DNA of 64,000 nt from Desulfobacteraceae bacterium. Its GTDB lineage: Bacteria; Desulfobacterota; Desulfobacteria; Desulfobacterales; Desulfosarcinaceae. The stretch covers positions 1-64,000 of the forward strand of contig QZKV01000003.1 in the NCBI GenBank assembly GCA_003599575.1. Reading direction: 5' to 3'. Each line of letters opens with the position of its first letter. Position 1 is the first letter of the stretch. Below are positions 28,836 to 41,027 of this stretch, in pieces. A program made the translations under genes and the position numbers. The notes below the pieces were generated by a model. The model saw only the letters and a program-made list of their open reading frames with translations, had not been told where the DNA came from and did no database searches.

Positions 28836-30059
28836 CTATTGCACCCGCTCCAAGCCTTTCCAGAATAAGGGATCGGACACCGGCAGCAGCGGGAAGCTGT
28901 TCAAGAAAATGAGCATGCACAGGGCGACCAATCCGAAAAACCCGGCGCTGATCAACAGCTCCATGATCCCCAGCGGCAGACTGTTTTCCTTCCACAGCGA
29001 CGGGGCGATGAGCAGAAAACGCTCCAGCCACATGCCGACCAGGATCAGCAGCGAGAGGGCCACCATGAAGCCGTGTTTCATTTTGATGCGGCGGCTGAGC
29101 AGAATGACGAAAGGCACCGCGAAGCAGACGATCAGCACGGTCCAGGCCAGCGGCTCCCAGGGGAGTCCGCGCACGCGCTGGAGCACGAAATGGGTTTCCT
29201 CTGGCAGATTCCCGTACCACGTGATGAAAAACTGCACGTAGAAAAAGTCGGCCGTAATCAGGCAGAACCCCAGCAGCAGTTTGCCCAGGTTGTGCAGGTG
29301 CAGCGGTCGGATGTAAGGTCCCAGACCGAGCCGGCGCTTGGCATAAAAGCACACAATGATCACAGCGGCGATGCCGGTGAAGAAACTGCCCACGAAGTAA
29401 TACGCGCCGAAAAGGGTGCTGTAGTAATGGGGGGTAAGCGACATGATCAGATCGAAGGCCACAATCGTGAGCAGCACGCCGAAAAAAATGCCGTAGATGT
29501 TGGCCAAGATGGTCTGAGCCCTGGCCTGCGGCGCTTTTTCGGGCAAATCCAGCACGCCTTGCTTCCGGCCGACCAGCTGTGCGTCTCCGCGTACGCCCGT
29601 GAAAACCATGCCCACTGCGGAGAGCGCCAGCAGCAGCAGGGCCGCGCCTTCCCGTAAGAAGAAGAACGGAGTATTCAACCAGGCCTGTTTTTCGGGAACC
29701 GGTTCGTGAATCCACGGAAACAGACCATCCTTGCCGATCCACAGCACCCAGAAAAGTACAAATGCCAGCGGCAGAAAGAATACCGGCGCTTCGGCCAGGC
29801 GCTTGATGGAACGCCCCCAGTCGGCCTTGGTGATGATCAGCACGGCCGAAAACATCACCGCCCCGCAGCTCAGCCCGGTCCAGAACATCAGATTGACCAG
29901 AAAGGCCTGCCAGGCGCGCTGGTGCATGGCGCCGCCGGCGCCGTACAGGAAGGCGGCAGCGCCGACTGCGACGCACGCCGCCGGCAGCCAGAGGATCCAT
30001 CCGCCGGCCGGACGGCCCTGGGCGTCCCGGAAAACAGCTTTGCGGTCGATTTCAGACAT
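28836..30059 (-). CDS. actF: ActF-like membrane subunit of Alternative Complex III
   Basis: Multi-TM NrfD-like protein: MSEIDRKAVFRDAQGRPAGGWILWLPAACVAVGAAAFLYGAGGAMHQRAWQAFLVNLMFWTGLSCGAVMF. ORF opens at 30086. Confidence 0.85.
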   Translation of the reverse strand: MSEIDRKAVFRDAQGRPAGGWILWLPAACVAVGAAAFLYGAGGAMHQRAWQAFLVNLMFWTGLSCGAVMFSAVLIITKADWGRSIKRLAEAPVFFLPLAFVLFWVLWIGKDGLFPWIHEPVPEKQAWLNTPFFFLREGAALLLLALSAVGMVFTGVRGDAQLVGRKQGVLDLPEKAPQARAQTILANIYGIFFGVLLTIVAFDLIMSLTPHYYSTLFGAYYFVGSFFTGIAAVIIVCFYAKRRLGLGPYIRPLHLHNLGKLLLGFCLITADFFYVQFFITWYGNLPEETHFVLQRVRGLPWEPLAWTVLIVCFAVPFVILLSRRIKMKHGFMVALSLLILVGMWLERFLLIAPSLWKENSLPLGIMELLISAGFFGLVALCMLIFLNSFPLLPVSDPLFWKGLERVQ

Positions 30060-30558
30060 CGCGAATCTCCTCTGCGCCGCTTTCATGCAAAAGGCGCCGC
30101 ACCGCCTCGTTGCGTGCAGGCGGACAGGTCAACAGGATGCCGAAGCGGTCCACCGTGAAACGGGCGTCGTAATGCGCAGGAGTACTCAGGCGGGGCATGC
30201 GCGAGAGAATCAGCAGGCCCGCCAAACCTGCCAGGATCGCAAAGAGAATACAAAATTCAAATGAGATGACGACATACGGGATCCTTGGAATCTGAGGCTT
30301 TCCCCAAACGATGAATTTCCACTGGGCGGCCGTATAAGTCGCCAGGACAAAGCCGGAAATAACACCGAACAGGCCGCCGAAAAGAACGAAGCGCCGCACC
30401 GGGCTGGGCCTCATGCCCAGCGCCTCTTCGACTTCGTCATTGCGTGCGGGCGTATATACGTTTTCTACGGCGATTTTTTCGGCCTTCATCTTTTCGATCG
30501 CCTGAATGACATCGTCGACGTAGGCGTAAATGGCCAGTAGTTTCTTGTTTTCTTGCAT
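30052..30558 (-). CDS. actD: DUF3341 (ActD-like) subunit of Alternative Complex III
   Basis: LLAIYAYVDDVIQAIEKMKAEKIAVENVYTPARNDEVEEALGMRPSPVRRFVLFGGLFGVISGF; two TMs; position between actC and actF. Confidence 0.88.
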   Translation of the reverse strand: MQENKKLLAIYAYVDDVIQAIEKMKAEKIAVENVYTPARNDEVEEALGMRPSPVRRFVLFGGLFGVISGFVLATYTAAQWKFIVWGKPQIPRIPYVVISFEFCILFAILAGLAGLLILSRMPRLSTPAHYDARFTVDRFGILLTCPPARNEAVRRLLHESGAEEIRDV

Positions 30559-30646
30559 ATTGTCCGAACCCGATGGTTTATGTCCCCTTCAGACTTCAAA
30601 CTTTTGTTTTCAAGCCCTGCAAACCGTCCAACGGACCACGTGCTTT

Positions 30647-31963
30647 TCATTCCCTGCGCCTTGGTACCGGCAGATCTTCCTTCAACTCGGTCATGGAAAT
30701 GGTGGGAAGGAATTTGGCGAACAGCAGGAAGAGAAAAAAGAAAATGCTGAACGACCCCAGCAGGATACCGAATTCCACGATGGTCGGCCCGAAGTACCTG
30801 CCCCAGGAATATGGATCGAATTCATGCGCCGGAGAACTCAGAATGATGACATAGCGCTCGTACCACATGCCGATGTTGATCAGCACCGAAATGACGATCA
30901 ACGGAACCAGGCGGGTGCGCAGTGTTTTGATATAGAAGAAAAGCGGTACGATGGCATTGCAGAAGAACATCAGCCAGAAGACGAAGGCATAGGGCCCCGT
31001 TGCGCGCCAGTGAAAAATACCCCGTTCGGCCTCATTGCCGCTGTACCAGGCAATGAAAGTTTCGGTCATGTACGAATACAGCATGATCAGACCGGTAAAG
31101 ATGATGGTTTTGGCCACATTTTCGAAAATATCCATGCTCAGGATCTCTTCGAACCGGTACAGGATGCGCAGGGGTATCAAGAGGATGAGGACCATGGCCA
31201 GGCCCGAGTGAATGGCGCCGGCCACGAAATAGGGCGCAAAGATGGTGCTGTGCCATCCGGGCACGATGCCCAGCGCAAAATCCCAGGAAACGATGCTGTG
31301 CACCGAAATCACCAACGGTGTGGCCAGCGCCGCAAAAAGGATGTAGACCCAGCCGTGATGCCCCCACTGGCTGGCGTTTCCGGTCCAGCCGAGCGATATG
31401 ACCGTATAGATCTTCTTGCGCAGCCCCTTGAATCTCTCCCGCAGAATGGCCAGATCGGGGATCATACCCGTGTACCAGAAGATCGTGCTGACCGTCAGGT
31501 AGGTGGAAATGGCGATCACATCGAATACCAGCGGAGATTGGAAATTGGGCCACAGGTTGCGCTGGTTGGGATAGGGCAGGATCCAGTAGACGATCCACAC
31601 CCGGCCCAGGTGGATTAAAGGAAAAAGGCCGGCGATCATGACCGCGAAGACGGTCATGGCTTCGGCGCTGCGCGCCAGGGCCGTGCGCCAGGGCGCTTTG
31701 AACAGATAGAGGATGGCGGAAATCAAGGTTCCCGAATGGGCAATCCCCACCCAGAAGACGAAATTAATCAGATAGGTGCCCCACATGACCGGGTGGTTGA
31801 TGCCGGCCGCGCCCAAACCCGTGGCGATCTGCCATCCCCAGGAAAAGACGCCTATGAGAATGCCCACAAACGCGAGGGCCAGCACGGCCCAGTAGGCCTT
31901 GACGGGCTTGGAAAAGCCGTAAAGGACCTTCTCATTGATCTCCTGATAGCTCAATTGCTTCAT
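30647..31963 (-). CDS. actC: NrfD/PsrC-like ActC subunit of Alternative Complex III
   Basis: YWAVLALAFVGILIGVFSWGWQIATGLGAAGINHPVMWGTYLINFVFWVGIAHSGTLISAILYLFKAPWRTALARSAEAMTVFAV. Confidence 0.92.
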   Translation of the reverse strand: MKQLSYQEINEKVLYGFSKPVKAYWAVLALAFVGILIGVFSWGWQIATGLGAAGINHPVMWGTYLINFVFWVGIAHSGTLISAILYLFKAPWRTALARSAEAMTVFAVMIAGLFPLIHLGRVWIVYWILPYPNQRNLWPNFQSPLVFDVIAISTYLTVSTIFWYTGMIPDLAILRERFKGLRKKIYTVISLGWTGNASQWGHHGWVYILFAALATPLVISVHSIVSWDFALGIVPGWHSTIFAPYFVAGAIHSGLAMVLILLIPLRILYRFEEILSMDIFENVAKTIIFTGLIMLYSYMTETFIAWYSGNEAERGIFHWRATGPYAFVFWLMFFCNAIVPLFFYIKTLRTRLVPLIVISVLINIGMWYERYVIILSSPAHEFDPYSWGRYFGPTIVEFGILLGSFSIFFFLFLLFAKFLPTISMTELKEDLPVPRRRE

Positions 31964-31975
31964 AGGCTTAGGATT

Positions 31976-32030
31976 TTTTGAGTTGGTTGATTCGTTGAGG
32001 TTATCGGGTTATGTGTTTATTGGGTCATTG
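31976..32030. repeat. Degenerate TTGAGTTGGTTGATT-type repeat in the actB-actC spacer
   Basis: ttttttgagttggttgattcgttgaggttatcgggttatgtgtttattgggtca. Confidence 0.6.
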
Positions 32031-32085
32031 ACTAAGTTCAATTCCCAAAAGTTGATCCTGCAAATCCATCACGGCAAACGGACTC

Positions 32086-35037
32086 TCACAGTTCCTGGGT
32101 CAAGCGTTTCAGGTAGATGACCGCCGGTTTGGTATTCAGATGGTGCAGCACCTGATAGGCCCGGGCATCTTTGATCAATCGCGCCACCCGGCTTTTCGGA
32201 TCGAGCAGGTTGCCGAAGATCAAGGCGTCGGTCGGACAAGTCTGGGCGCAGGCGGTGGTGAATTCGCCGTCGCGCAGCGGCCGGTCTTCATTGCGTGCTC
32301 GGACCTTGGCCGCCACTATGCGCTGGATGCAAAAGGAGCATTTTTCCATGATCCCCTTCTGCCGCACGGTCACTTCGGGGTTGAGCTGCATGTTCAGCGG
32401 CTCCGGGCGCCTCCAGGTAAACCAGTTGAAGCGGCGCACCTTGTAAGGATCGTTCTGGGAGCAGAAGCGCGTACCGAAACAGCGGTTGTACACCTGGTTG
32501 TTGAGGCCGTCGACGCTGTGATGGGGCGCGAAAACGGGACAAACCGACTCGCATGGGGCTGCGTCGCAATGCTGGCACAGCATGATCAGCCAGCCCACCC
32601 GCCACGTGCCCGGTTCGAAATAGCGTTGCGTCCGGATCCATGACATTTCGCGCATCTTGAGCATCTGTTGGCGGCCCACGAAGGCCACGTTGTTTTCCGC
32701 GTAGCAGGCCATCACGCAGGCCCCGCAGCCGATGCAGCGGTCCAGGTCGACGACCATGCACCAGCGGAATTCCGTGTGCTGGTGCGGAGCGTAAAAATCC
32801 ACATCGCGATGGTAGCCCTCGGCCAGAGGCATGGTGATGTGCGGCTTGTGCCCGGCGGAGGCAGCCTCCCTGTAATGCATGAAAACTTCGCGCTGCAGGA
32901 TGTCGCGGCCCTGGTCGGTAAAACTCCCGCTGGTGGTGGCAATGGCGAAGCGTTCCTCCAGACGGTTGATCTTGACCACGAAAGAGGTGCCGGCCATCGC
33001 GCCCCTTTCATCGGTCTTGGGGGAAAGCAGTTGGTAGGCATTGCCGGGCAAACCCTCGGCAAACCGTCCGAAATGGGTATGGCCCTGGCCGAGCGGTACG
33101 GCCACCTGGCCCGGCGGGACAGAGGGGATCGGCATCACCGGCACCGCAATGGCTCCATGCGGCGATTCGATCCGGACCAAATCATTTTGGGACAACTCCA
33201 GCCGGCGGGCATCGTCCGGGTTCATCTCGACCCAGCCGCCCCAGGTGATCTGGGTAATGGGATCGGGAAACTCCTGGATCCAGGGCCGGTTGGCCATGCG
33301 ACCGTCATAGAACTGGACGGTCGGGTATACGACCGCGTGAAACGCCCCCAGCTCCGGCTTGCCGGTTTCCTTTGGAAATACGGCTTCGTCCAGCCTTCCC
33401 GCGAGTTTGGGGGGTGACACAGGCCTTTGATCTTCCGGCCAGCGCCCGCCGCGGCGCAGCGTTTCCATCCAGAAGCGCGTGAAATTGCCTGTGCCTTCCT
33501 TTTCCTGCTGCTTGCGCCAGGCGGCCTGGAGCATTTCCAGGAAGCTGGGATGATCTTCGCCCCTGCGGTCAAAAAGCGACTGGATCAGCAGGTCGCCCAA
33601 TGGGCGGGTGTCCATCAGGGGTCCCATGGTGGGTTGCAGGACACTCAGGATGTTCTCCTTGGGGCGGTAATCCCCCCAGGTTTCCAGGAAAGTGTGCGCC
33701 GGAAGCTGCAGATGCGCCAAGGCGCCGGTTTCGTCTGTGAAGCTGGAGAAGCTGATCACTGCCGGCACCTGCCGCAGGCCGTCGCCAATCTGCCAGGCGG
33801 CGGGCAGGGTGAATACCGGGTTGCTGTCGTGAACCAGCAGCACATCGATATCTTTTGCCTGTAAACGCCGGCCGAACTCCTGCATGGCCGCGGCCGGGGC
33901 GGCCGCGCCGATGGCATGCGGGTTTCGAAAATCCAGCAGGGCCAGGCTTTCCTGCTTGAAGGCGCACAATAGATTGGCGGCGATCGCGCTGGGATAGGCA
34001 TTGGGGGTCAACAGGCCGTTGCCTCCCGCCAGGGCCAGTGGCCGGGCGGCGCTTTGAAAGCGGCGCGCGACCCTGCGCAGTTCTTCTTCGGGCACCCCGC
34101 TTTGACCGGCCGCATCGCGGACCGAATAGGGTTCAAGCAGCGCCTGCAGCATGTTGCGCCGCCCGGACGCCCAATGCGCCGGGGCCTCTTGTTCCATGAG
34201 GGCTTTGAGTATGCCCAGGCCGACCAGATACTCCTTGCCCGGCGCCACCAGAAGCACATGGTCGGCGTTGGCGGCCGTCTGGGACCGGCGGGAGCCCACA
34301 TGGACAAAGAAGTTTTTGCGATCCGCGCGGGGTCGATGAAAAAGGCCGAAGCGACGGGCGTACTCCACATTGGAAAGCCAGGTCTCCAGGAATGGGGCGT
34401 CGAAAGAGATCAGAAAATCGGCCTCATCGATCCGGTAGGTGGGCAGCGCCTTTTCCCCGAAAACGGCCTGATTGGCCGCTTGCAGTGCCTCATAGGCCAA
34501 TGGCTCGTACATGAGGTGGCTTTGGGGTCCGGCCCCGAACCCGGCCAATCCCTGATCGATGACCTCTTTGAGCGTGCCGGTGACCAGAGGGGTTAACAGC
34601 ACCAGCCGTTCCTGGCGGCCCTGGTCGCGCAGGCTCTGCAGGCGCTGGGCCAGCAGCCCGGCGGCTTTGGTCCATTCCAGCGCCTGCCGGGAGCCGTCCG
34701 CCAGACGCACGGACGGTTGCCGGATCCGATCCGGATTGTAAAGGCCGGTCAATGAAGCCTGGCCGCGGGGGCAGAGCTTGCCGGCGCTGATCGGGTGCAA
34801 CGGATTGCCTTCGGCCTTGACAATGCGGCCGTCCCGATTCGCCACCAGCATGCCGCATCCAGCCGGGCACTCTCGGCAGGTGGTGGCAAAATAGGTCGGT
34901 TGGCCGGGGATGATACCTTCGGGAGGACGGACGTACGGAATCAAATCCGGTAATTCCGGCGCGCAGCCGGTGGCGAAGGCCACACTGCTCCAGCTCATCA
35001 GTTTGAGGAATTCGCGGCGCTTGATGCCTTTGGCCAT
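32086..35037 (-). CDS. actB: ActB-like Fe-S/molybdopterin-domain subunit of Alternative Complex III
   Basis: CRECPAGCGMLVANRDGRIVKAEGNPLHPISAGKLCPRGQ; C-terminal ferredoxin modules CIGCGACVMACYAEN, CQHCDAAPCESVCP, CSFCIQRI...CAQTCPTDALIFG; N-terminal RREFLK. Confidence 0.93.
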   Translation of the reverse strand: MAKGIKRREFLKLMSWSSVAFATGCAPELPDLIPYVRPPEGIIPGQPTYFATTCRECPAGCGMLVANRDGRIVKAEGNPLHPISAGKLCPRGQASLTGLYNPDRIRQPSVRLADGSRQALEWTKAAGLLAQRLQSLRDQGRQERLVLLTPLVTGTLKEVIDQGLAGFGAGPQSHLMYEPLAYEALQAANQAVFGEKALPTYRIDEADFLISFDAPFLETWLSNVEYARRFGLFHRPRADRKNFFVHVGSRRSQTAANADHVLLVAPGKEYLVGLGILKALMEQEAPAHWASGRRNMLQALLEPYSVRDAAGQSGVPEEELRRVARRFQSAARPLALAGGNGLLTPNAYPSAIAANLLCAFKQESLALLDFRNPHAIGAAAPAAAMQEFGRRLQAKDIDVLLVHDSNPVFTLPAAWQIGDGLRQVPAVISFSSFTDETGALAHLQLPAHTFLETWGDYRPKENILSVLQPTMGPLMDTRPLGDLLIQSLFDRRGEDHPSFLEMLQAAWRKQQEKEGTGNFTRFWMETLRRGGRWPEDQRPVSPPKLAGRLDEAVFPKETGKPELGAFHAVVYPTVQFYDGRMANRPWIQEFPDPITQITWGGWVEMNPDDARRLELSQNDLVRIESPHGAIAVPVMPIPSVPPGQVAVPLGQGHTHFGRFAEGLPGNAYQLLSPKTDERGAMAGTSFVVKINRLEERFAIATTSGSFTDQGRDILQREVFMHYREAASAGHKPHITMPLAEGYHRDVDFYAPHQHTEFRWCMVVDLDRCIGCGACVMACYAENNVAFVGRQQMLKMREMSWIRTQRYFEPGTWRVGWLIMLCQHCDAAPCESVCPVFAPHHSVDGLNNQVYNRCFGTRFCSQNDPYKVRRFNWFTWRRPEPLNMQLNPEVTVRQKGIMEKCSFCIQRIVAAKVRARNEDRPLRDGEFTTACAQTCPTDALIFGNLLDPKSRVARLIKDARAYQVLHHLNTKPAVIYLKRLTQEL

Positions 35038-35608
35038 AAAGGTCTCATATTTTTGACTTTGAAAAGGTCATCTTTTTTGCCAGGGAGCCTCTCAGAGGCC
35101 GGCTCGGGTCGGATTTCCTGTTCGGCGGGTCGGCATCAACGATCGCGATTGAAAGCAACGTCCGAATTGGAACGCAGCCTAGCATTGCGCATGTACAAAC
35201 AAAATCAGGCCAAACATGTATTTTGAATAGGTTCCGGACAGTATGCCGGTGGTCTTCACCCCATCGGCGACCGTGACCACGTGCCTGCCGGCGTGCGCCT
35301 TCCAGCGCGCGGACGCGAACTTATGCTCCGGGGCCGTTCGCGGTCCCGTCCTGGTCCTTATTGGAAGCAGTCTCGGCCGGACGGTCATCCTTCCCCAAAA
35401 CGGTTGCATTCTGATGGTGAAACGATGCATCGGGCGCCTGGCGCGCGCTCAGGCAACCGGGGCCGTTCAGATCGGCGGACACGCGGCACAAATCACAAAT
35501 AGGGTGGATACCTGATACCCCGCTTTCAGCGGGCATTTTATGCTTGGGGATGACTCTGAACACCCGCGCTCATTGCCCAAACAAAAAACCGACCAAGGAG
35601 CAATCGTC

Positions 35609-36187
35609 ATGACCACCCACTCAGCCATCCGCCGCCGGGAAATGCAGGATCCGCACCTAAACAGGTGGTGGGTCTTCCGGATGGGTGCGGCCGGCGGACT
35701 GGCGGCCGGGATCGGTTACATGCTTTTCGAAATGTCGGCGGCCTGGCTGCTGAAGGGTGAACTTTTCAGCCCCTTGCGGTCGATCGCGGCCATGCTGCTG
35801 GGCCGGGATGCGCTGGCCCCCTGGTATTCAGCCTTCGCCGCCGTGCTGATCGGGATGGCGATCCATCTGATGCTATCGATATGTTTCGGCTGGTTGTTTG
35901 CCTTCCTGGCGGCACGCTATCGCATCCGGAGTGGTTCTCCCCTGGCATGGCTGGGATGGGGCGGGATGTTCGGAACGGGATTATGGATCGTCAACTTCTA
36001 TCTTGTGGCACCCCTTTTCGGGTGGTACTGGTTTCCGCTGGGGACCCTCCCGTTCGTCCAGGCATTCCTCGGACATGCCTTCTTCTTTGGTGCGCTCCTG
36101 GGCTGGCTTGTTCATCGCAGGTTAAAACCCTATCTTCCGCCTGGATCGACCAGGGATGTGCCGGTTCATGGGGGCGTGCCCCGATAA
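35609..36187 (+). CDS. Conserved multi-TM membrane protein
   Basis: ATG at 35609 after aaggagcaatcgtc; HLNRWWVFRMGAAGGLAAGIGYMLFEMSAAWLLKGELFSPLRSIAAMLLG... Confidence 0.75.
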   Translation: MTTHSAIRRREMQDPHLNRWWVFRMGAAGGLAAGIGYMLFEMSAAWLLKGELFSPLRSIAAMLLGRDALAPWYSAFAAVLIGMAIHLMLSICFGWLFAFLAARYRIRSGSPLAWLGWGGMFGTGLWIVNFYLVAPLFGWYWFPLGTLPFVQAFLGHAFFFGALLGWLVHRRLKPYLPPGSTRDVPVHGGVPR

Positions 36188-36440
36188 CAATACATACCGC
36201 ACGGTATTCAAACGCTTGCCTTCGATCCTTATGTTTCCGCCACTTGGACGCACTTGCGTCGTTCATTTCCCCCGCTCGCGCATGGTGAGCCGCTTTCAAC
36301 GCCACTAGCCAATTTCCAACGGACCGCACCTCCGGAGATGATGTTGCTGCATGGCGGACTCTGGTGCTGTGTACCTTTACCGCTGCGGTGACCTTTCCAG
36401 GCAAGGCTTCGCGCTTTGCAAAACCTTCAGGAGATGGTTT

Positions 36441-39400
36441 GTGCAAACCTTTTCTAGAGAGCGCCGTGTCCTTTGCGGGATTTGTCCGGCGGGCTGCTGG
36501 ATCGTTGTATCTTACGATCAAGAGGGCCGCATGGCAGCCGTGCGGCCGGATGACACCTCTGCCCTGGGCATCCTGTGCAAACTGGGCGAGCACTCACCCG
36601 AGATCGTCTACTCCCCGCATCGCTTGAAAACACCCCTGCGCCGCAAAGGGCCCAAGGGGACAATGGATTTCGAAGCGATCTCCTGGGATGCGGCTTTCGA
36701 TGAAATCGTCGCCCGCCTCAACGCGCTCAAGGAGGCCTCGGGACCCGAGGCGGCCGCCATTTATACCGGCCGGGGCAGCTTCGAGCTGGGCATGTGCGAC
36801 GTGTTTCAGCCGGCCGGGGTCGCGGTCTCTTCAGCCTCCAGCGTGCTCTTTCCGTTCGGTTCGCCCAACACCATGGGCGTGGGGGCCTTGTGCTACGTCT
36901 CCTACGCCATGATCGCGCCGCATGTCACCATGGGCGGCATGCTGATCAACATGTTTTCCGATCTGGAAAATGCGGATCTGATCGTGGTCTGGGGGGCCAA
37001 CCCGGCCACGGACAGTCCGCCGCTTGATTATTACCGCATTGCGGAAGCGGCCAAACGCGGTGCGCGGGTGGTGGTGATCGATCCGCGGCGCACGGCCACC
37101 GCCAAACTTGCGGGCGCCGAATGGGTGCCCATCCGGCCGGGCACGGATGGAGCGCTGGCCCTGGGGCTGTGCCAGGTGCTGATCGCAGAAGAATTGCATG
37201 ACGAAGCCTTTGCCCGCAACTGGACCCACGGCTTCGACCAGTTCGTCGCCTATTTCCAGCATTTCCGTCCCGAAGTGGTCGAATCGATTACCGGCGTCCC
37301 GCAGGAGACCGTGCGCTCGCTGGCCCGGCGTATCGCCGCCGCACGCGGTGCCTCACCGGTGATGTATACCGGATTGGAGTACAACGACAGCGGCGTGCAG
37401 GCCATCCGGGCCACCATGGTCCTGTGGGGCCTGGCCGGCCAGCTGGATGTGCCCGGCGGGCGCTGCTTTACCATGCCGGGCAGTGAATTTCCGATCAACC
37501 GCCAAGGCTTGATCGCCAACCCCAACATGAAAAAAGCCCTGGGGCTGGAAAGCTTCCCGGTCTACAGTGCTTACCGGGGCGAATCGCATGCCAACGCCCT
37601 GCCCGAAGCAGTGCTCAACGGCCGGCCCTATCCGATCCGCGCGTTGCTCGTTTTAGGGGCTTCGATCACCACGGCCTGGCCGCAACCGAGCGTTTGGCGG
37701 CGCACCCTGGAGGCTTTGGATCTGCTGGTGTGCATCGATGTGAACCTGACGGCCGATTGCGCTTATGCCGATATCGTGCTGCCGGCGGCCACCTGGTACG
37801 AAATCGAATCGTACATGCGCTACGGTCCGGTCTTCCGCATCCGCGAAAAAGTGATCGAGCCGCTGGGACAATCCCGCAACGCCTTTTTTATTCTGACCGA
37901 GTTGGCCGAGCGGCTCGGATACGGCCACCTGTACCCGCGCAACGAAGAGGCGTTGCTGCGCCATGCCCTCAAGGCTTCGCCCTTCACCCTGGAACAGGTG
38001 CGCGCCGCGGGCGGCGCGGTGCGCATCGAAACCGGGCTGATGCAATATAAGAAATGGGAAAAAGGGCTGTTGCGCGCCGACGGGCGTCCCGGATTCGACA
38101 CGCCCACCGGCAAATTCGAGATCGCATCCACGATTTTGGAGGAACACGGCTATGCGCCCCTGCCGGTTTATACCGAACCCCAGGAAGGTCCGCTGGCCCG
38201 GCCGGAACTGACGCGCGACTATCCGCTGGTGTTCAACTCCGGCGCGCGGGTGGCCACCGATTTCCGCAGCCAGTTCCACGGCATCGAGGGGCTGTGCCGA
38301 CAGCGGCCCGAGCCCACCATCATGCTCAACGCCGGCGACGCCGCGGCCAGGGGGATTGCGGACGGGGATGCGGTGCGGGTGCGCACGCCGCGCGGCCGGG
38401 TGCGCATGCGCGCCCTGGTCAGCGATGATATCGTAGCCGGTGCCATCGACGCCAACATGGGCGGCGGCGGCCCGCTCGGACCAGCCGCCTGGCAGGCCTG
38501 CAACATCAATGACCTGACCGGCTTGCGCTACGATCCCATCTCCGGATTTCCCATCTACAAAGCGCTTTTATGCGAGGTGGAAAAAGTCGCTCAGGACGGC
38601 GGCGCCTTGCGCATCGATTCGGGCGAGCCGGCCGCGCTGGCCGGGCATCTGTCCCGTGCCGCCGAAGCACCCGCGAGTGCCGAGCGCATCTATCTGGACC
38701 ACAACGCCACCACCAGCCTGGCCCCTGAGGTGATCCGCTGCATGACCGATGCTTTGCGCGACGGGTACGGCAATCCCTCGTCCATTTACCGTGAGGGCCG
38801 TGCGGCCAAAAACGCGCTGGAAGAGGCCCGCCGCAAAATCGCCAAGCTGCTCGGGTGCACGGCGCGGCGCATCTACTTTACCGGCGGCGGCAGCGAGGCC
38901 AACAACTGGGTGATAAAAAGCAGCGCTTTGGCCCACTGGGATAAAAAGTCGCACTTCATCACCTCGGCCGTCGAACACTCTTCGGTATTGAAGGTGATGG
39001 AATGGCTGCGCGCATACGGTTTCCCGGTGACCCTTCTGCCGGTGGACCGCTACGGCCAGGTCGATCCCGACGACCTGGCGTCGGCCATCACTCCCAAAAC
39101 GGTCCTGGTCAGCATTATGACCGCCAACAACGAGACCGGTACGATTCAGCCGATTGCGCAACTGGCCCGCATAACGCGGGAACGCGGGGTGCTGTTCCAT
39201 ACCGATGCGGTGCAGGCCGCCGGCAAGATCGCCCTGGATGTCATCGATCTGGACGTCGATTACCTGACCATGTCCGCGCACAAGCTGCATGGCCCCAAAG
39301 GGGTGGGCGCGATCTATGTGCGCAAGGGTGTCAACCTCACGCCGTTGATTCATGGGGGCAGGCAGGAGCATGGCGTGCGCGCGGGCACGGAAAACAGTCC

Positions 39401-39842
39401 CGGTATCATCGGATTCGGCCGGGCCGCCGAACTGGCCGAGAACCGTCTGCCGGAATCGGCCGGCCGTGTCGAACGGTTGCGCAACCGCCTGCAGGCAGGC
39501 CTGCTTGCGATCGTTCCCGGCGCCCGGCTCAACGGCCATCCGCGTGAGCGCCTGCCCAACACCTTGAATATCTCTTTGCCGGCGGTGCGGGGGGAGAGCA
39601 TGGTGCTGGCCCTGGACATGAAGGGGGTTTCCATTTCGTCGGGTTCGGCCTGCCGCTCGGGTTCGCCCAATCCTTCACATGCGCTTTTGGCCATGGGCCT
39701 GACCGCCGAGCAAGCCCATTGCGCCCTGCGGTTTTCTCTGGGCCGCGCCAACAGCGAAACCCAGATCGACCGGGTCGTCTCCCTGATCGACGATACCATC
39801 CACCAGTCCATGAACAGCGTGCGGTTCGTGACCTGTCGATGA
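36441..39842 (+). CDS. Molybdopterin oxidoreductase / cysteine desulfurase fusion; candidate metallopterin-dependent ergothioneine synthase (MES)
   Basis: N-terminal [4Fe-4S] LCGICPAGC...ILCKLG, GVGALCYVSYAM, NADLIVVWGANPATDSP and C-terminal NifS-like YLDHNATT...TMSAHKLHGPKG...SISSGSACRSGS in one uninterrupted frame. GTG at 36441 with AGGAG at 36429-36433 is the best start; the listed ORF opens at 36351. Confidence 0.9.
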   Translation: MQTFSRERRVLCGICPAGCWIVVSYDQEGRMAAVRPDDTSALGILCKLGEHSPEIVYSPHRLKTPLRRKGPKGTMDFEAISWDAAFDEIVARLNALKEASGPEAAAIYTGRGSFELGMCDVFQPAGVAVSSASSVLFPFGSPNTMGVGALCYVSYAMIAPHVTMGGMLINMFSDLENADLIVVWGANPATDSPPLDYYRIAEAAKRGARVVVIDPRRTATAKLAGAEWVPIRPGTDGALALGLCQVLIAEELHDEAFARNWTHGFDQFVAYFQHFRPEVVESITGVPQETVRSLARRIAAARGASPVMYTGLEYNDSGVQAIRATMVLWGLAGQLDVPGGRCFTMPGSEFPINRQGLIANPNMKKALGLESFPVYSAYRGESHANALPEAVLNGRPYPIRALLVLGASITTAWPQPSVWRRTLEALDLLVCIDVNLTADCAYADIVLPAATWYEIESYMRYGPVFRIREKVIEPLGQSRNAFFILTELAERLGYGHLYPRNEEALLRHALKASPFTLEQVRAAGGAVRIETGLMQYKKWEKGLLRADGRPGFDTPTGKFEIASTILEEHGYAPLPVYTEPQEGPLARPELTRDYPLVFNSGARVATDFRSQFHGIEGLCRQRPEPTIMLNAGDAAARGIADGDAVRVRTPRGRVRMRALVSDDIVAGAIDANMGGGGPLGPAAWQACNINDLTGLRYDPISGFPIYKALLCEVEKVAQDGGALRIDSGEPAALAGHLSRAAEAPASAERIYLDHNATTSLAPEVIRCMTDALRDGYGNPSSIYREGRAAKNALEEARRKIAKLLGCTARRIYFTGGGSEANNWVIKSSALAHWDKKSHFITSAVEHSSVLKVMEWLRAYGFPVTLLPVDRYGQVDPDDLASAITPKTVLVSIMTANNETGTIQPIAQLARITRERGVLFHTDAVQAAGKIALDVIDLDVDYLTMSAHKLHGPKGVGAIYVRKGVNLTPLIHGGRQEHGVRAGTENSPGIIGFGRAAELAENRLPESAGRVERLRNRLQAGLLAIVPGARLNGHPRERLPNTLNISLPAVRGESMVLALDMKGVSISSGSACRSGSPNPSHALLAMGLTAEQAHCALRFSLGRANSETQIDRVVSLIDDTIHQSMNSVRFVTCR

Positions 39843-39878: not shown

Positions 39879-41027
39879 ATGAAACCGATTGCAGGAAAAC
39901 AACATCGCTTGCAAAGTTATTCCCCTGCGGAACAATGGGCCGAACCGCGCGGGCAAGTTCAAGACTTGAGCTGGGGCGCCCGGCAGCGCCTGTCTTTCGC
40001 CAACTATGTGCGCGCGGATTTCAAAGATGAAATCGGCAAGGATGTCCGGGAGGGATTGTCCGCCAGGCCGAAGACCCTTCCGTGCAAGTACTTCTACGAT
40101 GACCTGGGCTCGCGTCTGTTCGATCAGATCTGCCGCCTGCCGGAGTATTATCCCACGCGTACGGAAATATCGATTTTGCGGACTTCGGGGGCGGCGATCA
40201 TGTCCTTTTTCGAGCCGCAACCCGGTGACCTGGTGGAGATCGGTTGCGGTGCCGATCTGAAGATCCGCCAGCTGTTCGAGCGGACCGACCCGGACCGTCT
40301 CGCGCACATCCGCTATGTGCCCATGGACATCAGCGCCGGCTGCCTGGTGCAATCCGCGCGCCGGATGCTCGCTGATTTCAGGGGCTTGAAAGTTCATGCG
40401 CTCATCGCCGATTTCACCCGCCATGTGGAACGAATTCCGGCCGGCCGGAAGATGATCGTGTTTTTCGGCGGGACCTTCGGCAATTTTACATTCGCGGAGG
40501 GCATCGATCTGTTAAAGCGCCTGGCCGGCATCATGGGACCGGAAGACCGGTTGGTCATCGGCCTGGACATGATCAAAGAAAAAGAGATCCTGGAAGCCGC
40601 CTACAACGATCGGCAAGGGGTTACAGCCGCATTCAATCTGAATCTCCTCCAGCACATCAACGTGCGGCTCCGGGCGGATTTCGATCTGAATGCGTTCGAA
40701 CATCTGGCGTTTTGGAACGAGCGGCAGGAGCGCATCGAAATGCACCTGCAGGCCAAAAAGGATTTCAATGTTAATCTTGCCGAACTGGGCATCTCCTGGT
40801 CTTTCACCCGCGGGGAGAGCATTCGCACCGAAATCAGTCAGAAATTCAGCCGAAAAAGCGCGCAGGAGCGCTTCCGCAAGGCCGGCTTGCAAGCAATTGC
40901 CTGGCATACCGATCCGGCCGGGTGGTTCTGCCTGGTGGAACTGCGCAGATTGCAGGCCTTGGACCTCGGATATGCCATCCAGCCGTCCGGAAATGGGTGT
41001 GAGAAGGTCGTCCCCTCCGGGGCTTGA
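39879..41027 (+). CDS. egtD: L-histidine N(alpha)-methyltransferase
   Basis: LPCKYFYDDLGSRLFDQICRLPEYYPTRTEISIL, LVEIGCGADLKIRQLF, MIVFFGGTFGNFTFAEGIDLLKRLAGIMGPEDRLVIGLDMIKE; characteristic EgtD motifs. Confidence 0.95.
   Translation: MKPIAGKQHRLQSYSPAEQWAEPRGQVQDLSWGARQRLSFANYVRADFKDEIGKDVREGLSARPKTLPCKYFYDDLGSRLFDQICRLPEYYPTRTEISILRTSGAAIMSFFEPQPGDLVEIGCGADLKIRQLFERTDPDRLAHIRYVPMDISAGCLVQSARRMLADFRGLKVHALIADFTRHVERIPAGRKMIVFFGGTFGNFTFAEGIDLLKRLAGIMGPEDRLVIGLDMIKEKEILEAAYNDRQGVTAAFNLNLLQHINVRLRADFDLNAFEHLAFWNERQERIEMHLQAKKDFNVNLAELGISWSFTRGESIRTEISQKFSRKSAQERFRKAGLQAIAWHTDPAGWFCLVELRRLQALDLGYAIQPSGNGCEKVVPSGA

Follow-up and report, generated by a model that had tools for sequence, protein, structure and literature searches.

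A fused metallopterin–cysteine desulfurase gene beside egtD in a Desulfobacteraceae bacterium: a predicted member of the MES family of ergothioneine synthases, and its unfused relatives

The gene at positions 36441-39842 of the 64,000-nucleotide stretch of contig QZKV01000003.1 analyzed here (the window) from a Desulfobacteraceae bacterium is a well-supported further member of the already described family of metallopterin-dependent ergothioneine synthases (MES), with an activity that is predicted from sequence. Enzymes of this kind were described in 2022 by Beliaeva and Seebeck (PMC9516567). Together with the egtD gene that follows it, the gene very probably forms a two-gene, oxygen-independent ergothioneine pathway with a fused MES, and the closest relatives that are not fused to a desulfurase may make a different sulfur-containing histidine. 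The features of the locus are listed below, with the corresponding residues of the Caldithrix abyssi enzyme (CaMES) in brackets.

36429-36433, + strand: ribosome-binding site AGGAG, read in the sequence; spacer of 7 nt to the GTG at 36441
36441-39842, + strand: MES gene, predicted metallopterin-dependent ergothioneine synthase orthologue, 1133 aa, stop codon TGA at 39840-39842
36441-38594, + strand: metallopterin (bis-MGD) module, aa 1-718 (PF00384, PF01568; phmmer; Foldseek)
36474-36578, + strand: [4Fe-4S] ligands C12, C15, C19 and C46 (C14, C17, C21 and C48), in 64/64 homologues
36891-36893, + strand: codon of C151, metal-ligand Cys (C153), in 64/64 homologues
38595-38681, + strand: variable inter-module linker, about aa 719-747, of low model confidence
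38682-39839, + strand: NifS/IscS-type cysteine desulfurase module, aa 748-1133, with the desulfurase itself at about aa 748-1122 (TIGR03402, PF00266, Foldseek)
39282-39284, + strand: codon AAG of K948, PLP lysine (K952), in 64/64 homologues
39651-39653, + strand: codon TGC of C1071, persulfide-forming Cys (C1074), in 64/64 homologues
39720-39722, + strand: codon of C1094 (C1097, non-essential in CaMES), in 62/64 homologues
39834-39836, + strand: codon of C1132, penultimate residue and relay Cys (C1135), in 64/64 homologues
39879-41027, + strand: egtD, L-histidine N-alpha-methyltransferase, 382 aa, 36 bp downstream of the MES stop and on the same strand

The open frame runs from 36351 to the TGA (1163 codons), a length far above chance expectation, and GTG 36441, with AGGAG ahead of it, was the best start; this choice is supported by the 81% identical protein of a congener, which aligns from the same first residue (it begins ..MMVQSLPKERR). 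Three Pfam domains were found above cut-off, namely Molybdopterin (residues 61-491), Molydop_binding (603-708) and Aminotran_5 (750-1112). The single uninterrupted frame joining two modules that the initial annotation had described was thus borne out, as were its cluster cysteines (C12-x2-C15-x3-C19...C46), its likely metal ligand in GVGALC(151)YVSYAM, its PLP lysine with AAG at 39282 (K948) and its catalytic cysteine with TGC at 39651 (C1071). Missing from that annotation was the penultimate C1132, the counterpart of CaMES Cys1135 and the second cysteine of the persulfide relay, which is regarded here as decisive. Just upstream of the gene lies a putative 215-aa membrane protein (35540-36187, + strand) with 0 Pfam or NCBIfam matches. 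Elsewhere in the window lies a Qrc/ACIII-like membrane redox cluster (28836-35037, - strand). One of its proteins, of 983 aa, combines a QrcB-like with a QrcC-like part, each scoring below cut-off; the others are a membrane protein resembling NrfD/DsrP and two unassigned proteins.

According to the 2022 paper (PMC9516567), the cluster ligands of CaMES are C14, C17, C21 and C48, the metal ligand is C153 and the PLP lysine is K952; its activity and the requirement for K952, C1074, C1135 and C153 have been established, the relay cysteines C1074 and C1135 both being essential, C1097 is non-essential, and the desulfurase module ends at residue 1136. One protein among the collected genome relatives (L058, from Caldithrix abyssi isolate HyVt-577) starts with ATG, has 1136 aa and carries C14, C17, C21, C48, C153, K952, C1074, C1097 and C1135 at the published positions (9/9). 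Because all nine coincide exactly with the numbering of the paper, and from the isolate name, we infer that L058 is the assayed CaMES or a very close protein. The MES protein of the Desulfobacteraceae bacterium is 66% identical to L058 end to end and has all nine of these residues. Orthology, which the initial annotation had proposed as an inference, is supported by this full-length identity, by the nine positions, and by placement in the MES clade (see below). The two enzymes resemble each other in being single chains of similar length (1133 vs 1136 aa) with the nine listed residues and an EgtD partner; they differ in the phylum of the host, the identity to L058 being 66%, and for the present one ergothioneine synthesis is a prediction.

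In an alignment of 64 homologues, C12, C15, C19, C46, C151, K948, C1071 and C1132 were invariant, and C1094 was conserved in 62, which is consistent with the C1097S variant of CaMES losing only about half of its activity in the published data (PMC9516567). Two more cysteines, C119 (36795-36797) and C711 (38571-38573), are invariant in 64/64 MES, and the equivalent of C711 (C710) is invariant in the unfused clade too; neither is discussed in the available parts of that paper (PMC9516567).

Structure prediction of both modules, a check suggested in the initial annotation, with Foldseek searches of the model gave matches to acetylene hydratase and to NifS/IscS/NFS1. The AlphaFold2 model of the protein has a mean pLDDT of 86.3 and a pTM of 0.80, with dips at residues 148-154 (metal-ligand loop), 1070-1075 (Cys loop) and 1129-1133 (tail) as well as at the N-terminus and the linker. 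The first three of these dips are compatible with a mobile persulfide relay, of which they are no proof, and could also reflect plain model uncertainty. For the metallopterin module the top Foldseek match was acetylene hydratase 2E7Z (TM(target) 0.83, 24% identity), the nearest solved relative by phmmer as well; it shares the module fold, the [4Fe-4S] cluster and the Cys ligand, whereas it has neither a desulfurase nor an EgtD and catalyzes another reaction. The desulfurase module matched NifS/IscS/NFS1 (TM(target) 0.89-0.96), is mostly 40-42% identical to solved chains and keeps the PLP Lys and persulfide Cys; unlike NifS and IscS, it is fused, has an extra tail ending in Cys-Arg and reaches 500 bits against TIGR03402, below the NifS equivalog cut-off of 530.75.

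The neighboring EgtD scored 352 bits against TIGR03438 (cut-off 290.9), matched EgtD of the PDB with an E value of 8e-80 and carries the equivalents of Y39, Y56, G161, N166, Y206, M252, E282 and S284 of M. smegmatis EgtD (8/8 identical), which we take to form the histidine site; the adjacent egtD of the initial annotation is thereby confirmed at 39879-41027. EgtD was present in all eight sampled genomes of the same class with a fused MES, and it is a neighbor in 47 of 65 MES loci (loci longer than 9 kb, window included). A match to EgtD in genome G222 (22.5 bits within a 4511-aa frame) was rejected as spurious. No EgtB-type synthase (TIGR03440) was found above cut-off in the genome of the Desulfobacteraceae bacterium or in any of the eight same-class MES genomes, the best EgtB match reaching 61.8 bits where 360 are required; matches to the EgtB N-terminal and OvoA N-terminal models were partial, covered mostly the C-terminal part of the models, lay far below cut-off and were set aside. 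Near MES, a related ABC ATPase occurs in 13 of 65 neighborhoods and a substrate-binding/permease protein in 8 of 65 (e.g. L042:3549-5827). Judged by reading their sequences only, these proteins resemble quaternary-amine importers of the OpuC/EgtU type and are possible transporters of ergothioneine or trimethylhistidine (TMH).

In the proposed pathway, EgtD would trimethylate histidine to TMH. Cysteine would give up its sulfur to the C-terminal desulfurase, forming a persulfide at C1071, and the sulfur would move on to C1132, which sits on a mobile tail at the C-terminus; this tail would re-sulfurize the Mo or W that C151 holds in the bis-MGD cofactor, and TMH would be sulfurized at C2 of the imidazole. 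We infer from orthology that the protein acts like CaMES; its metal is presumed to be Mo or W.

A maximum-likelihood tree was built on the metallopterin modules and bears on a reading that competes with this pathway, in which the protein is a redox metallopterin enzyme (a formate, thiosulfate or polysulfide reductase) whose fused desulfurase only matures its own cofactor. The general NCBIfam matches do point that way, being Fdh-alpha (TIGR01591, 264.8 bits, cut-off 666.25) and PhsA (NF012032, 237 bits, cut-off 694), yet both lie below half of their cut-offs. A grouping with formate or thiosulfate reductases, which the initial annotation had named as evidence against its proposal, was not obtained: the module falls inside the MES clade together with L058 (support 96/98), apart from the formate dehydrogenase of the same genome (TIGR01591, 813 bits) and from its PhsA-like paralogues. 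These paralogues stand on very long branches, so that the only well-resolved division is the one separating MES from its unfused sister clade. Since the pairing with EgtD is strict, the C-terminal relay Cys is invariant and the nearest solved relative is acetylene hydratase and no reductase, we consider a redox role highly unlikely.

Just as improbable, in our judgment, is an MES-like sulfurase acting on a trimethylated or imidazole substrate other than TMH. The unfused sister clade is found with a different methyltransferase, which makes it probable that the fold can accommodate further substrates; against this, the gene next door here encodes a complete EgtD that has every histidine-site residue, and the assayed MES homologues from four sources act on TMH (PMC9516567). 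Least probable of all is a non-functional or misbinned gene, for which the contamination estimate of the assembly (6.93%) and the patchy occurrence within the genus might speak: the frame is intact with every catalytic residue present, and a congener with 2% contamination (L009) has the same MES-EgtD pair at 81% identity.

Because the gene was found in only 1 of 10 sampled congeners, MES is regarded as an accessory trait. Labels in the MES clade include Planctomycetota, Nitrospirota, Gemmatimonadota, Actinomycetota, archaea and others, and fused MES (L038-L117) occur in records labeled as anammox Planctomycetes, Nitrospira, Actinomycetes, Thermoleophilia, Thiodiazotropha, Gemmatimonadota and Thaumarchaeota. 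The set of the 2022 paper was strictly anaerobic, and this spread goes beyond it, although the records are mostly MAGs in which binning errors are possible.

The unfused relatives are proteins of about 730 aa that are 48-54% identical to the MES metallopterin module, are without a desulfurase and are separated from MES by a supported branch (98/97, maximum-likelihood tree); none of the NCBIfam models matched this clade above cut-off. They share with MES the Cys metal ligand, the conserved C711 and a terminal-tail Cys, whereas they differ in the missing desulfurase, in a cluster motif C-x2-C-x5-C and in an OvoM/OvsM-like methyltransferase partner. In all ends that were read, a K/R-rich stretch leads into a closing DP[TSGN][LY]GC[GV]G, one further relative ends in DASLGCVG, and D726, G730, C731 and G733 are invariant in a 23-sequence alignment of the clade. 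The loci are L118-L137 and L158-L160, an example gene being L119:8204-10420 (- strand). A third, tail-less unfused group (L154, L155, L156 and L157, from genomes G171, G478, G485 and G659) has 43-45% identity and about 704-737 aa, and the stretch read contains no EgtD and no OvoM-like methyltransferase; G485 and G659 carry SSLCNN[SA]H at the metal-ligand region, and an in-frame TGA of G478, considered as selenocysteine, was merely a stop codon after residue 706.

Among the 292 genomes of the class sample, 36 hold an unfused protein; G171 belongs to the tail-less group and was set apart, so that it is no counterexample to the pairing described here, which leaves 35 genomes (ends read for part of them). 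A 315-aa methyltransferase was found in 35/35 of these; in 32 of them it is a same-strand neighbor at a distance of at most 151 bp, and in 31 it lies upstream (an example is L119:10424-11371, - strand, beside the unfused gene). Counted over all unfused genomes, it occurs in 35/36 as compared with 51/292 overall (Fisher P about 1e-31, for related genomes that are not independent), and in 16 further genomes it occurs where the cut-off applied gave no unfused protein. G168 is one of the 35 that also has MES and EgtD, and it is the only one of the eight MES genomes with the 315-aa methyltransferase; a credible EgtD was found in 0 of the other 34, and no OvoA sulfoxide synthase was found above cut-off in the 35.

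The best NCBIfam match of this methyltransferase is TIGR04345 (OvoA C-terminal methyltransferase) at 90-122 bits, under the cut-off of 170, and it is therefore a relative and no member of that family. Its N-terminus is a Trm112-like zinc domain, and a profile of 20 such proteins searched against the PDB gave OvsM, OvoM and OvoA at 100-108 bits, the next structure being at 49. From the gene pairing and homology, we tentatively consider it a real possibility that the unfused enzyme and the OvoM/OvsM-like methyltransferase constitute an undescribed oxygen-independent route to a 5-thiohistidine such as ovothiol, or a selenium analogue, in which the metallopterin enzyme, with a Cys tail supplied with sulfur in trans by a general desulfurase, would sulfurize histidine before the methyltransferase methylates the imidazole. 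A search of a literature collection that covers only a minority of subscription papers found neither an anaerobic metallopterin route to ovothiol nor such a gene pair; the MES authors speculated that uncharacterized molybdenum enzymes may put sulfur on heterocycles (PMC9516567).

These results place the oxygen-independent ergothioneine pathway, so far assayed in four MES homologues (PMC9516567), in another lineage, and the comparison identifies the invariant MES residues, C119 and C711 among them. What specialists would most want tested is the unfused sister pair, a concrete candidate for asking whether anaerobes use metallopterin enzymes to make other thiohistidines. If the proposed route is true, MES would represent a single branch within a larger class of metallopterin histidine sulfurases, and the branch point would be a swap of both the sulfur supply (fused desulfurase versus cysteine tail) and the methyltransferase (EgtD versus OvoM-like).
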